Origin: Bacteroidales bacterium
Lineage (GTDB): Bacteria; Bacteroidota; Bacteroidia; Bacteroidales; F082
Length of the DNA: 64,000 nt
Reading direction: 5' to 3'
Assembly: GCA_024710405.1 (NCBI GenBank)
Contig: JANJUV010000002.1
Coordinates: 310,001-374,000 of the forward strand
Shown piece after piece: positions 30,655-37,466 of this stretch. Every line of letters starts with the position of its first letter. Position 1 is the first letter of the stretch. The translations under genes were made by a program, and so were the position numbers. Below the pieces are notes generated by a model. That model ran no database searches. It was not told where the DNA came from and was given only the letters and a program-made list of their open reading frames with translations.

Positions 30655-31758
30655 TTAATAACTGATCCGTGTGGGGCCGCTGCCAGCCTTGTCATCAATC
30701 CAGCGCCCGTCAGCGCAATACTGCAGGAGTTGTTCGCGGATGAATTCCTGTAACTTATCAGCATATTTTCCGGGATACAACAAGTGGACATTAGGTCCTG
30801 CATCGAGAGTGAAACAAACCGGGATGTGCTGCTCCCTGCGGAACTGACGCACCGCCTGAATCACCGACACTGTCTGAGGTTCGATGAGCAGATAAGATGG
30901 CCGGCTGGTCATCATCAGGGCATGAAGCTGCAAAGCCTCCTCTTCGGTGATCTGCACAAAAGTTTCAAGATCTCCCTGCATCATAGCTTGTGTAAGGCGC
31001 TCAAGGTTCTGATGGGCAAGGGCATAACGGGTTTCAGCAAAAGGATTGTTTTCCATAAGGGCATGTCCTGCCCTGCTCGACACCGACTTGGTTCCGGAAT
31101 GCACTATCAGTATGCTGTCGCGCATCTCCCTGAAGTCGGCATGAAGAAACTGCTCTGCCGGAACGGCAAACTCCTGCGAGGAACCTGCCACTGCTTTCGA
31201 CGTGCCCCATACCGCAGCATACGGAAACACCGAACGCGAGGCGCTGCCGGAGGCAAGTCGTGCAAAATAAGATGCCTTACGGATAAACTCTTCATGGTTA
31301 AGCTTCGCCTCAGCAAATTGTTGTTCCACATTGAGCAGACAGAGCACCAACGCACTCATCGAACTTGCCGATGAGGCGATTCCCGAAGAATGCGGAAAGT
31401 TGTTCCGGCTTTCAACCGAAAGATGCAGATGGTTCAGGAAGGGAAAAAACGGTTCAACGGACTTTAGAAACAATTCAATTTTCTCACCAAATGCCGGATT
31501 TGGTTTCCCTTCAAAAGCAAACTGAAGACTGATTCCTGTCTGCTTTTTCCGCCGCCACGACAGGCTTGTTTCGGAACGTGCCTCACTGAGTGTAAAACTC
31601 AGCGAAGGATTCATGGGTAACTGTCGGTCATATTTGCCCCAGTATTTGACAACGGCAATATTGGAAGGGCTTTGCCAGGCTGTTGTTCCTTCCACCACTG
31701 ATTCAGGGATATGTGTTAAAGCACTGTCGAGATATACTTGTTCAATCAGGGAACTCAC
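30655..31758 (-). CDS. mvaD: diphosphomevalonate decarboxylase
   Basis: GHMP-family enzyme that decarboxylates mevalonate 5-diphosphate to isopentenyl diphosphate with ATP. The 367-residue chain has SPSNIAVVKYWGK at 31-43, the substrate-binding signature; HSSGIASSASSMSALVL, the ATP loop; and DAGPNVHLLYP near the end. It starts with GTG at 31758, overlapping the TGA of the upstream kinase by four bases (GTGA), so translation is probably coupled. Third gene of a minus-strand mevalonate operon. Confidence 0.92.
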   Translation of the reverse strand: MSSLIEQVYLDSALTHIPESVVEGTTAWQSPSNIAVVKYWGKYDRQLPMNPSLSFTLSEARSETSLSWRRKKQTGISLQFAFEGKPNPAFGEKIELFLKSVEPFFPFLNHLHLSVESRNNFPHSSGIASSASSMSALVLCLLNVEQQFAEAKLNHEEFIRKASYFARLASGSASRSVFPYAAVWGTSKAVAGSSQEFAVPAEQFLHADFREMRDSILIVHSGTKSVSSRAGHALMENNPFAETRYALAHQNLERLTQAMMQGDLETFVQITEEEALQLHALMMTSRPSYLLIEPQTVSVIQAVRQFRREQHIPVCFTLDAGPNVHLLYPGKYADKLQEFIREQLLQYCADGRWIDDKAGSGPTRISY

Positions 31759-32708
31759 GTTTGCGTTGGTTTTAGGATGGTTTGATCATATTGAAGTACT
31801 ACCGGCATTCCTTTTCCGGTAAAATAGGCCTCTGTTTCAGTTGCGGGCAGGTCAGTGAGGGCAAGCAGAAAATCACCGCCCCAGGCGCCCAGCGATTTCA
31901 GTTGTCCGGGGAAATCGGGAAAGGAATCGCCCACGGGTGGCATGGACAGCAGTTCTGAAATGATTTCGTCATGTTCGCGTATAAGTGTGCAGAAATCATT
32001 CAGGTTAGTGGATGTCACCATCCGTCGGCTGATGCGGCTGACAGCGGCAACGGCTTCTGTCAGGTCGCTGTCCTCATGCCGTTGGTTGAAGCTGCGGATG
32101 CTGTCGTCGGAGCGCTGCTTGCGCCCCGAATACACGAAATACATATTTGCAGCAAAAGGAGGCGCAAAGGCGGCTTTGCGCACCACCGGCCTCATATTGC
32201 TGAGTCTGTAATACAGCGGTCCTTGAGCATCTGCACAGGCAATGTCGTAGCCTGAGCCTCCTACCGACAGGTTCAAAAGGGTGTAGGGATCAACGGCAGC
32301 CCAGCCGGCCAGAGCGGAAATGAGTGTTGAACTGGAACCAAATCCCCAGTCGGGGTCAAAATCAAGCCGTGTCTCAACCGAATGCGACCGATCGCCCGAA
32401 AATAAACCCGGTCTGAGCTGACTTAAAGTAAGCAATATCATTTGCAGGCGTATGGCCTTGGGCTGATCGCTGCATGAAAGGAGTTCGAGACCGGGCAGGG
32501 CAAAAACGGCTTCGAACCACACAGCTTCAGGTGTGTATGCTTTCCAGGTGATTGCAGGGGCGTCTCCGGCTGCACAGGTGGTCACTGTGAGCGACTGTCC
32601 GTAGCGCAAGGGGATTGCAAGTGCTTCGGCACCTTTCAGCACAAGATATTCGCCCGACAGCAGAAGTTTACCGTGTGCCCGAAAAGTCTGCTTTACTTCC
32701 CGGTTCAT
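31755..32708 (-). CDS. GYDIA-family GHMP kinase, probable mevalonate kinase
   Basis: Protein of 317 residues with the GHMP fold: AHGKLLLSGEYLVLKGAEAL at the N-terminus, the ATP loop WGFGSSSTLISALAGW and GGSGYDIACADAQGPLYY, the motif that names the GYDIA group. The gene lies between HMG-CoA reductase and diphosphomevalonate decarboxylase, overlapping each by four bases, so it probably phosphorylates mevalonate or phosphomevalonate. Only one kinase is encoded in this operon although the classical pathway needs two; the second must lie elsewhere or the enzyme is bifunctional. That point is inference. Confidence 0.85.
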   Translation of the reverse strand: MNREVKQTFRAHGKLLLSGEYLVLKGAEALAIPLRYGQSLTVTTCAAGDAPAITWKAYTPEAVWFEAVFALPGLELLSCSDQPKAIRLQMILLTLSQLRPGLFSGDRSHSVETRLDFDPDWGFGSSSTLISALAGWAAVDPYTLLNLSVGGSGYDIACADAQGPLYYRLSNMRPVVRKAAFAPPFAANMYFVYSGRKQRSDDSIRSFNQRHEDSDLTEAVAAVSRISRRMVTSTNLNDFCTLIREHDEIISELLSMPPVGDSFPDFPGQLKSLGAWGGDFLLALTDLPATETEAYFTGKGMPVVLQYDQTILKPTQT

Positions 32709-34033
32709 CTCCGCAATGAGGCGATATATTGACCGACACTGGCGAACGATACCTTCTGGTCTTTGAAATGTTCAACAGCAGCGTTCTTTTCAGCATCGCT
32801 GGCCTTGAAATGATTGAGGATATTAAAAAGGTGCATCTTCATGTGTCCGGCCTGAATGCCTTTGGTGGTAAGGGATTTCACTGCGCTGAAATTATTGGCC
32901 AGACCCATTGCAGAAGCAATCATCATCAGTTCGGGTGCTGTGGGATTTCCAAGCAATTCGAGGGATTGTTTGGCCAGGGGATGCAGGCTGGTGAGGCCGC
33001 CGACGGTTCCCATAGCTAAAGGGACTTCGAGGACAAAACGGAACATCCCATCGCTTATTTCAACATGGGAAAGGCTTTTGTATTGCCCGCCGGATGCAGC
33101 ATAGGCATGTCCGGCAGCTTCAATGGCCCTGAAATCGTTTCCGGTAGCAATGGCCACTGCATCGATACCGTTGTAAATTCCTTTGTTGTGTGTTGTGGCG
33201 CGGTACACATCCACTTCGGCAATACGCACTGCTGTTTCAAACTTGCGTGCAAAAGCCTCGCCATCGAGCTTTTCATCCACGTTATCGAGTTGCTCCAGCG
33301 GGCATTCGACCCAGGTGCGCACGAGACATTCAGGAGTGAAATTGCTCAGGATGGCCATGATAATTTCGCACTGACGGCTTTCCAGATCAAGATGAATCTG
33401 TTCTGAGAGAAATACTTTCAATGATTGGGCAAACTCCTCCAGAACTGAATTAATGAAGTTAGCGCCCATGGAGTCACGGGTTTCAAAGCTTACCATCAGC
33501 TGGTAATAATGGTCAATCCTGTCGGTCATGTCCACCAGACTGATGTCGATAATGCCGCCTCCGCGCTTTTCCATATTGGCCGTGATGTGCGCGGAATCTG
33601 AGCGCAGGCGTTCTTTAAGGGCCGGCATCAGTCCGGTAAGCACTGTGGTGGCTCCTTTCCAGATAAAATGTACCTGCCCGATCTTTTTGGTGGAGACCAC
33701 TTCAGATTTAAAACCTCCCCTTTCGCTCCAGAATTTGGCAGCGGCTGAGGCGGCAGCAACCACCGAACTTTCTTCAATAACCATTGGAACAAGATAGTTG
33801 CGTCCGTTGATAATCACATTGGGGGCGATTCCATAAGGGATGATGAAATTGGTGATGGTGTTTTCGCTGAATTCATCAAACAACTTTTGCTGGCTTTCAT
33901 CACTGTGCCAGAAGCTTTTCAGCAATTCGATCACCTCTCCGGGATTCTCGAAATACTCGGCAACAAGTTTCAGCTTGTCTTCCTTCAGCAGTTTGGAGAA
34001 GCCTTTGATGATGATGTCTCTTTTTCTTCCCAT
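32705..34033 (-). CDS. mvaA: hydroxymethylglutaryl-CoA reductase, class II
   Basis: Reduces HMG-CoA to mevalonate. The 442-residue protein lacks membrane segments, as in bacterial class II enzymes. The block VIEESSVVAAASAAAKFW (about 85-102) contains the catalytic glutamate; NKGIYNGIDAVAIATGNDFR and GTVGGLTSLHPLAKQSLELLG are further family marks. It is the first gene of the operon; its TGA overlaps the ATG of the GHMP kinase by four bases. This indicates that the organism makes isoprenoids through mevalonate. No HMG-CoA synthase gene is present in the window. Confidence 0.93.
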   Translation of the reverse strand: MGRKRDIIIKGFSKLLKEDKLKLVAEYFENPGEVIELLKSFWHSDESQQKLFDEFSENTITNFIIPYGIAPNVIINGRNYLVPMVIEESSVVAAASAAAKFWSERGGFKSEVVSTKKIGQVHFIWKGATTVLTGLMPALKERLRSDSAHITANMEKRGGGIIDISLVDMTDRIDHYYQLMVSFETRDSMGANFINSVLEEFAQSLKVFLSEQIHLDLESRQCEIIMAILSNFTPECLVRTWVECPLEQLDNVDEKLDGEAFARKFETAVRIAEVDVYRATTHNKGIYNGIDAVAIATGNDFRAIEAAGHAYAASGGQYKSLSHVEISDGMFRFVLEVPLAMGTVGGLTSLHPLAKQSLELLGNPTAPELMMIASAMGLANNFSAVKSLTTKGIQAGHMKMHLFNILNHFKASDAEKNAAVEHFKDQKVSFASVGQYIASLRR

Positions 34034-35008: not shown

Positions 35009-36187
35009 ATGCGCTTAAAACAGATACAAACAATTACCTACCACTATTATATTCTGTTTGTACTGCTGGCTGCCGTTGCCATAAGCGGAGGAAGGGATTT
35101 TCTTTTTCACAGGGATGAAGTTGTGGTGAATGTAGGTCTTACGGATATTCAGAAGGTTTTCCCGGCAGCATCGCAATTTTCAGCAAACAGATTTGGCATT
35201 TATGATGTGTACACTGCTGACGGACACAAAAACGGAAGTGCATTCCTCTCATCCAATTACACCCGGCAGTTTGGATATGCCGGAATCGTTCCACTCCTGA
35301 TCGGTGTTGACGAAAATCTGATTATTTTAAAGATCTATGTTTTGCCGAACAACGAAACCGGTGATTATGTGGAAGCTGTTTACAGCGACAAATTTATCGG
35401 CAGCTGGAAGGGAGTCAGTCTTGAAGATGCCCTGCAGCTAAAAGTGGATGTTGTTTCGGGGGCAACGCACACAAGCAAAGCGGTGATCGCCGGTGTCAGG
35501 CATACTGCTTCTCATGTTCTGAATGCCGAATCGGCTGTTGTTGCTGAAACAAGCCTGTGGACAACCGTCAAAGACATTCTGTTTTTATTGGTGATATTGT
35601 TGTCGGTAGTGATCGTATATAAAAAAGGAAGGGCTAAGTATCGCACTGTTTATCTTTTTCTTGTATTGCTTATCATGGGGCTGATCCTCAACAATGCGCT
35701 CTCAGCCAGATTGCTGCATGGTTGGCTGCTGGAAGGATTTATGTGGCGGGCCAACTGGCAAAGCATATTTGTACTCATTCTGGCAGTGGCACTCCCCCTT
35801 ATCGGTAAGCGTAAGTTCTACTGTAACTACCTTTGTCCGATGGGCGCACTGCAGGAGCTTACTAACAAAATCTCTCCTTTCAGGAAAAGAAAACTTCCAA
35901 CTGTATTCATAGGCATAAGCCTAAGGGAAATTTACCTTGCCTTGATTGCAGGTGCACTGCTCACAGGCTTTACACCCGAGTTGGCCTATCTGGAACCTTT
36001 CATGTTTTTTTCATTTAACATTATCGGAATCGGGCTCATCCTGTTTGGTGCGGCAGTTATTGTTCTGTCGTTGTTTTTCAGCCAGCCGTGGTGCGCTGTC
36101 TGCCCCACTGGATGTTTTTTGGACATCCTGCCGCCCGACAAAATAAAAAATATTGAATCAAAGCACATTGACCATGCACAAAAGTAA
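35009..36187 (+). CDS. FMN-binding, NosR/NapH-like iron-sulfur membrane protein
   Basis: Membrane redox protein of 392 residues starting at the ATG at 35009. After an N-terminal anchor (about 11-25), an extracytosolic FMN-binding domain ends in VVSGATHTSKAV (SGAT at 150-153), the motif to which ApbE-type enzymes attach FMN through a threonine. Several membrane segments follow. The cysteine motifs CNYLCPMGALQEL and CAVCPTGCFLDILPP fit 4Fe-4S sites of the NosR/NapH type. Probable role: electron transfer across the membrane to an outside acceptor. Its reading frame overlaps the next gene by 14 bases. No apbE is present in the window. Confidence 0.85.
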   Translation: MRLKQIQTITYHYYILFVLLAAVAISGGRDFLFHRDEVVVNVGLTDIQKVFPAASQFSANRFGIYDVYTADGHKNGSAFLSSNYTRQFGYAGIVPLLIGVDENLIILKIYVLPNNETGDYVEAVYSDKFIGSWKGVSLEDALQLKVDVVSGATHTSKAVIAGVRHTASHVLNAESAVVAETSLWTTVKDILFLLVILLSVVIVYKKGRAKYRTVYLFLVLLIMGLILNNALSARLLHGWLLEGFMWRANWQSIFVLILAVALPLIGKRKFYCNYLCPMGALQELTNKISPFRKRKLPTVFIGISLREIYLALIAGALLTGFTPELAYLEPFMFFSFNIIGIGLILFGAAVIVLSLFFSQPWCAVCPTGCFLDILPPDKIKNIESKHIDHAQK

Positions 36188-37466
36188 GTTTTTGAATATA
36201 GTTCTGGCCACAGCTGTATTGGTGCTTACAATACTTCTGGCAACCAAAAATGATTTACCTGACATGCGAAAAAAAAATTCTCCGTCTGCATCCGAAGGTG
36301 CGCAAACTGTAGTTTCTGACTCTGCCTATATCCCATTTAAAAAGAAATCTTTGGGTGTCAGAGCGGAATTATACCCTAAACCCGCATTGGTGATCGGTTC
36401 CTACGATTCTGAAGGCAAACCAAACATCATGACAGCAGCCTGGATTGGCATCTGTAACTCAAATCCGCTTAGCATTGCTGTTTCCATGCGCCCTGCCACC
36501 TACTCTTATGGCAATGTTACCGAAACAGGTTTTTTTACGGTGAATATTCCCTCTTCTGATATGGTCAGGTATGTGGATTATGCAGGCCGGTTTTCGGGCA
36601 GAGATGTGGATAAATTCAAAGAGACAGGACTGACACCGGTGAAGGCGGAATTTGTAAACGCGCCCTATATTAAAGAGTTTCCAATCGTTATAGAATGTGA
36701 GGTCACCGCTTTTCATGAACTTGGTTCGCACCGTCAGTTCATTGGAAAAGTAATCGATGTAAAAGTTGATGAGGCCATCCTCGACGCCAATGGCAAGGTG
36801 GATGTGGCATTGTTGAATCCGTTGATTTATGCCGGAGGAAATTATTATGAAACCGGACGTTTCATTGCTGAAGTTGGTGAATCGTTGCATGAAATAGATG
36901 GTCAACCCTTTGTTCCTGATTACCGGCAAAAATATGTGAATGAGACCCTTGAGGTGATTCACAACCGAAAGAGTGTGCGGCATTTTACCGATCACCCTGT
37001 TTCAAAACAACAGATTGAGCTATTGCTGAGGGCAGGCATGGCCGCTCCATCGGCTGTCAACAGGCAACCCTGGGCCTTTTATGTGGTGACCAAACGAGAA
37101 ACACTGGATGCACTTGGCGAACAGTTGCCTTATGCGAAGATGCTGCTTCAGGCACAGGCCGCCATCGTAGTGTGTGGCGATATGGAGAAGGCCGGAAATC
37201 TGAAAGAACAAGGTTATTGGGTACAGGATTGTTCAGCAGCCACACAGAACATACTTCTTGCCGCAGAAAGCATTGGTCTGGGGGCAGTATGGACAGCTGC
37301 CTATCCGTATGAAGACAGATCAAAAGTTGTTACAGAAACCCTGAACCTACCTGAGAAACATGTGCCGTTTAACGTAATTCCCATCGGCTACCCAACAGGT
37401 GAGGATATTCCCAAAGATAAGTGGAAAGCGGAAAATATTGTTTGGCAGGAACATCTGAATGAGTGA
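36174..37466 (+). CDS. membrane-anchored flavin reductase-nitroreductase fusion
   Basis: Protein of 430 residues starting at the ATG at 36174 inside the end of the upstream gene. Residues about 5-24 form one hydrophobic segment with basic residues in front, so the rest should lie outside the cytosol. Residues about 50-245 are a flavin reductase-like (DIM6/NTAB) domain: KPALVIGSYDSEGKPNIMTAAW and ETGFFTVNIPSS. From about 255 a nitroreductase domain begins: VIHNRKSVRHFTDHPVSKQQ, then MAAPSAVNRQPWAFYVV and ESIGLGAVWTAAYP. Both domains normally bind FMN. The fusion and the export signal are unusual. It is probably the redox partner of the upstream membrane protein. Confidence 0.88.
   Translation: MHKSKFLNIVLATAVLVLTILLATKNDLPDMRKKNSPSASEGAQTVVSDSAYIPFKKKSLGVRAELYPKPALVIGSYDSEGKPNIMTAAWIGICNSNPLSIAVSMRPATYSYGNVTETGFFTVNIPSSDMVRYVDYAGRFSGRDVDKFKETGLTPVKAEFVNAPYIKEFPIVIECEVTAFHELGSHRQFIGKVIDVKVDEAILDANGKVDVALLNPLIYAGGNYYETGRFIAEVGESLHEIDGQPFVPDYRQKYVNETLEVIHNRKSVRHFTDHPVSKQQIELLLRAGMAAPSAVNRQPWAFYVVTKRETLDALGEQLPYAKMLLQAQAAIVVCGDMEKAGNLKEQGYWVQDCSAATQNILLAAESIGLGAVWTAAYPYEDRSKVVTETLNLPEKHVPFNVIPIGYPTGEDIPKDKWKAENIVWQEHLNE

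Follow-up and report, generated by a model that had tools for sequence, protein, structure and literature searches.

A pair of overlapping genes on the forward strand of the window (the whole 64,000-nucleotide stretch of Bacteroidales DNA that was analysed) encodes a NapH/RdhC-like membrane flavoprotein (gene 1) and an N-terminally anchored flavoredoxin-nitroreductase fusion (gene 2), which together probably form a membrane-to-periplasm electron relay leading to an exported flavin enzyme. On balance, and with less assurance, we also favour a broader reading of the sequences, according to which the pair belongs to an undescribed NapH-like branch, where FMN enzymes that are normally cytosolic and NAD(P)H-dependent (nitroreductase, Old Yellow Enzyme, and a flavoredoxin carrier) would have been relocated to the periplasm by means of a similar type of membrane anchor, with a membrane flavin donor now supplying their electrons; in its fused form, the system would be a flavin-only wire with three FMN sites in two polypeptides. 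The pair supplies a recurrent and testable partner set for one NapH-like branch and suggests that electrons derived from the membrane can drive nitroreductases and their relatives outside the cytosol. This bears on the reduction of nitro, quinone or ene compounds by Bacteroidales and on the re-purposing of NAD(P)H enzymes.

Architecture of the two proteins

Table 1. Features of the flavin pair, with positions in the window.
Feature	Position	Strand	Basis
Gene 1, NapH/RdhC-like membrane flavoprotein, 392 aa	35009..36187	+	ORF, Pfam, hydropathy, alignment
FMN_bind domain PF04205, residues 89-165	35273..35503	+	Pfam
SGATHTS flavinylation motif, S150-S156	35456..35476	+	sequence, alignment
First cysteine motif CNYLCP (CX3CP), residues 272-277, predicted cytosolic	35822..35839	+	hydropathy, alignment
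Second cysteine motif CAVCPTGC (CX2CPX2C), residues 362-369	36092..36115	+	alignment
14-bp overlap of gene 1 and gene 2	36174..36187	+	ORFs
Gene 2, N-anchored flavoredoxin-nitroreductase fusion, 430 aa	36174..37466	+	ORF, Pfam, structure matches, alignment
N-terminal membrane anchor, residues 6-24	36189..36245	+	hydropathy, alignment
Flavoredoxin / Flavin_Reduct domain PF01613, residues 57-234	36342..36875	+	Pfam, structure match
Nitroreductase domain PF00881, residues 256-424	36939..37445	+	Pfam, structure match, alignment

As the original prediction, made from the sequence alone, had claimed, gene 1 encodes an FMN-binding domain with an SGAT motif: PF04205 is matched at E 8e-11, and the SGATHTS stretch contains the predicted FMN attachment residue T153 (35465-35467), which together with G151, A152 and S156 is invariant in a 21-row alignment. 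The SGATHT portion matches the RdhC consensus [S/T]G[A/S]TX[S/T] (PMC5928378). The Fer4_5 membrane module (PF12801) is matched in two stretches (E 7e-12), and the predicted topology, derived from hydropathy and the positive-inside pattern only, comprises one helix, an outward FMN domain and then about five helices. The cysteine motifs had been placed in membrane segments. Two such motifs do exist; however, hydropathy puts both at cytosolic helix ends, and the second is CX2CPX2C instead of the CX3CP of PceC/RdhC, which the first motif fits. The fusion-associated clade has the CX2CPX2C form, and NapH-like proteins adjoining stand-alone nitroreductases have CX3CPTG at this position. Because the chemistry of the CX3CP motif is unsettled in PMC5928378, the label "iron-sulfur" is unproven for gene 1. 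By its sequence, gene 1 is a member of an established class, the flavinylated "NapH-like" proteins, is RdhC-like in layout, and would be covalently flavinylated by ApbE on the outward domain.

An apbE gene linked to the pair, proposed earlier as something to look for, is absent there; the one apbE found in the genome comes immediately after an nqrF-like gene at a distance of ~266 kb, and its product has a lipoprotein-type start. Since this single gene is so distant, and since the genome's two other FMN_bind genes are surrounded by Nqr- and Rnf-like genes, as judged from sequence, there is no need for apbE to be linked to the pair.

Gene 2 had been described as a flavin reductase-nitroreductase fusion. 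Both families are indeed present behind one anchor, with a split-barrel match to PF01613 (residues 67-227, E 2.5e-31) and a match to PF00881 starting at residue 262 (E 1.5e-29), but the closest solved relative of the first half is flavoredoxin (PDB 2d5m), to which the whole domain aligns at residues 57-234 (E 2e-55), and the name was adjusted in this respect. The gene 2 domain differs from that flavoredoxin in being predicted to be exported and in its fusion to a nitroreductase domain. For the nitroreductase half, the closest solved structures are 3m5k (E 2e-56) and 3kwk (E 1e-50), annotated as putative NADH dehydrogenase/NAD(P)H nitroreductase, which share this domain but are without the flavoredoxin half; among the structure matches listed, there was no solved chain covering both halves. 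The domains can be named because these sequence matches to solved structures sufficed; the AlphaFold models of both proteins are moderate (mean pLDDT 65 and 62) and give no interface.

Residues 1-30 of the fusion, to which the original prediction had drawn attention, contain the hydrophobic anchor with basic residues in front of it; basic residues also follow the anchor. In a 22-row alignment of fusions, the mean majority fraction is 0.82 for the nitroreductase domain, 0.79 for the flavoredoxin domain and 0.74 for the anchor, with a variable post-anchor linker at 0.39. The RKSVR motif (R265-R269) is invariant, with R265, S267 and R269 fitting the nitroreductase RxSxR motif, and so are N8, L11 and A12 of the anchor. 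In anchors adjoining NapH-like genes, an asparagine with LxLA-type residues after it is a frequent feature, which may, speculatively, mark a specific contact.

Pairing and recombination of the parts

A scan of named genomes for the full flavoredoxin-nitroreductase fusion found it in 22, all of them Bacteroidetes records, at 51-85% identity; carriers include Lentimicrobium, Labilibaculum, Geofilum, Ancylomarina, Carboxylicivirga, Natronoflexus, Alkalitalea, Alkaliflexus and others. In every one of the 22, the gene immediately upstream, in the same orientation, is a gene 1 homologue, so that the two-gene architecture does recur elsewhere, and a separation of the genes without co-occurrence was not seen among these genomes. 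The spacing between the genes ranges from -14 to +30 bp, with the 14-bp overlap kept in part of the relatives only. As the spacing varies, it is the adjacency that is selected, not the overlap itself. The reported overlap of the two ORFs was confirmed, but the stoichiometric production that had been derived from it is not borne out, and the overlap was ruled out as a functional sign.

The flanks around the pair differ among the 22 loci, and clustering of the neighbouring ORFs yielded no third real gene common to them; the flanks were hence discarded as a source of a substrate hint. In the window, three overlapping genes on the minus strand (30655-34033), located upstream of the flavin pair and divergent from it, read from sequence as mevalonate diphosphate decarboxylase, GHMP kinase and HMG-CoA reductase, i.e., a mevalonate-pathway cluster.

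A search beyond the order, with the NapH-like profile on 395 genomes of the phylum, returned only the window's own gene (E <= 1e-50); one with the fusion protein returned only its own gene plus one stand-alone nitroreductase (E <= 1e-60). In an order-wide survey of 393 genomes, 40 NapH-like genes were counted at E <= 1e-90, of which 21 have an FMN enzyme as neighbour or fusion partner, compared with a rough chance expectation for such adjacency of ~0.3% (~5 such genes per ~3000-gene genome); the sampled genomes are related, and these counts do not equal independent events. About half of the sampled NapH-like proteins are without an FMN-enzyme neighbour. The 21 partnered genes comprise nine with full fusions, seven with anchored nitroreductases (one divergent), and one each with a single-ORF NapH-nitroreductase of 607 aa (L015, identical to L122, with an N stretch inside the assembly), a single-ORF NapH-flavoredoxin of 675 aa (L149), an anchored flavoredoxin (L134), three separate genes for the NapH-like protein, an anchored flavoredoxin and an anchored nitroreductase (L153), and an anchored Old Yellow Enzyme (L155). 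The latter (L155:3444-4565, + strand; PF00724, E 1.7e-55), whose gene shares an overlap with the end of a NapH-like FMN_bind gene, may be one more exported FMN enzyme of this type, seen at one locus only. In the single-ORF fusions L015 and L149, an extra hydrophobic helix lies between the membrane module and the enzyme; provided that the last cysteine motif is on the inner side, this helix would place the enzyme outside.

Downstream of NapH-like genes without an FMN-enzyme partner, a small protein of ~110-130 aa is encoded (L150:3666-4100, L146:876-1274), with a signal-like start and the pattern KVELANLAKN...GKSVEFTGKV...CGRCDGQDC; it may be another NapH-like partner.

In a tree of the NapH-like proteins, those associated with fusions and that of the flavoredoxin-only locus L134 form one clade (17 rows, support 100/99), and the nitroreductase-associated proteins occupy another region. 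The fusions fall in two places in the nitroreductase tree, where a single clade is not rejected (AU p 0.27). The simplest reading of these trees would be that the fusions are of a single lineage, which lost the nitroreductase half in L134, and that NapH-like proteins became associated with separate nitroreductases several times.

Read from sequence, the N-terminus is hydrophobic in all classified separate nitroreductases that adjoin a NapH-like gene. Nine other separate nitroreductases carry a lipobox-like signal; the automatic classification also counted L022 in this group, whose N-terminus we read as an anchor, and overlooked that of L147, which is an anchor. Further ones are without a signal, among them nine sequences that form a well supported clade. 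Given the frequency of lipoprotein-type signals in this nitroreductase family, export of the enzyme looks recurrent. Flavoredoxins with Sec-like signal peptides occur outside Bacteroidetes (L089, L092, L107). The gene 2 enzyme is likewise predicted to be exported, with the orientation of its anchor deduced from the basic residues, the homologues and the fusions. Lipoprotein-type stand-alone nitroreductases of the same order (L014, L016, L017, L020, L021, L025-L028) have no NapH-like gene within <=1.5 kb on each side.

The proposed relay and its alternatives

NapH-like proteins have been proposed to pass electrons from quinol via FMN to oxidoreductases outside the cytosol (PMC8238504, in its main text, and PMC5928378). 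In the relay that we consider probable, gene 1 would take electrons from a membrane or cytosolic pool, probably menaquinol, and move them to the FMN attached by ApbE to its outward domain, from where they would pass to the FMNs of gene 2, first in the anchored flavoredoxin domain and next in the nitroreductase domain; the latter would reduce, outside the cytosol, a small electrophile such as a nitro compound, a quinone or an enone. NAD(P)H would be unavailable there, hence a different donor is assumed, and the membrane donor would stand in for the NAD(P)H of the cytosolic relatives. The direction and order of this flow are our interpretation. The original prediction had read the pair in a similar way, as a relay from the membrane to an outside flavin enzyme, which is now supported by the pairing in all 22 named genomes and, with regard to export, by the separate anchored genes (L153), the single-ORF fusions (L015/L122, L149) and the lipoprotein-type nitroreductases.

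It is conceivable, though unlikely, that the same relay ends differently, with the exported fusion reducing soluble flavins that diffuse to iron, humics or other acceptors. The families of both gene 2 domains include members able to reduce free flavins, and the lack of a substrate-specific gene conserved in the flanks suits a general acceptor; however, the nearest solved relative of the first domain is an electron carrier, flavoredoxin, rather than a free-flavin reductase, and no conserved cytochrome or flavin exporter was seen beside the loci. A reversal of the flow, by which the nitroreductase-family domain would oxidise a periplasmic substrate and gene 1 would feed the quinone pool, appears improbable. 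The nitroreductase superfamily does contain dehydrogenases (albonoursin synthase was found as a sequence relative), and NapH-like systems have also been linked to oxidases such as ExaA in the main text of PMC8238504, but the alternative partner in L155, Old Yellow Enzyme, is of a typical reductase family, and the nearest relatives of the gene 2 domains are annotated as reductases or electron carriers.

Just as little weight is given to a cytosolic arrangement, in which the flavin reductase/nitroreductase would use NAD(P)H and be held at the inner face of the membrane by a helix that is no more than a tether, and the pairing would reflect shared regulation. The basic residues following the anchor would agree with it, as would the signal-less nitroreductase and flavoredoxin genes that are adjacent in Desulfobacterota (L088, L108); against it stand the single-ORF fusions with their added helix, the lipoprotein-type nitroreductase relatives and the flavoredoxins with Sec-like signal peptides. 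Least credible of all, to a degree that makes it very improbable, is the idea that gene 1 functions in the reduction of nitrous oxide or organohalides, as a NosR or RdhC, with gene 2 being incidental. While the architecture is RdhC-like, the NCBIfam NosR match (E 1.5e-7) is far below its cut-off (30 bits vs 1000), whereby gene 1 was rejected as NosR; the genome has no NosZ over cut-off and no match to PF13486, the latter being a weak absence because the control matched nowhere either, and gene 2 is the partner in 22 of the 22 named relatives.

Relation to described systems

With the NapH-like systems of PMC8238504, the pair shares PF12801 together with an N-terminal extracytosolic FMN_bind domain and the modular pairing with extracytosolic oxidoreductases. 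The main text of that work (Meheust et al. 2021) gives NosZ, PceA, NirS and ExaA as partners, does not name nitroreductase or flavin reductase, and states the reactions of most NapH-like systems as unknown. Within the open-licence literature searched, no paper was found that links a nitroreductase with NapH-like or exported flavinylated systems; nitroreductase- and flavoredoxin-type partners are, in this scope, new to the class, in line with the original prediction, which knew of no described system with this fusion and its export. Nor did this literature yield an experiment on any member of the proposed system.

Gene 1 resembles PceC/RdhC (PMC5928378) in its FMN domain, placed outside between helices 1 and 2, in having about six helices and the flavinylation consensus, and in being without a C-terminal ferredoxin domain; for PceC, the outside location of the FMN domain was obtained by peptide shaving (PMC5928378). 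Unlike for PceC/RdhC, no reductive dehalogenase was found, with the weakness of the PF13486 control given above.

As regards the parts of gene 2, work by Broco in 2005, as cited in PMC4287179, is said to have linked the flavoredoxin of Desulfovibrio gigas to thiosulfate reduction. In the Desulfobacterota clusters L088 and L108, an iron-sulfur-flavoprotein-like gene comes after the neighbouring genes for nitroreductase and flavoredoxin; these clusters differ from the pair in being without a signal or anchor and in that no NapH-like protein was seen. They may be a cytosolic counterpart of the pair, and point to cooperation of the two domains also in the cytosol, on electrons from another donor.
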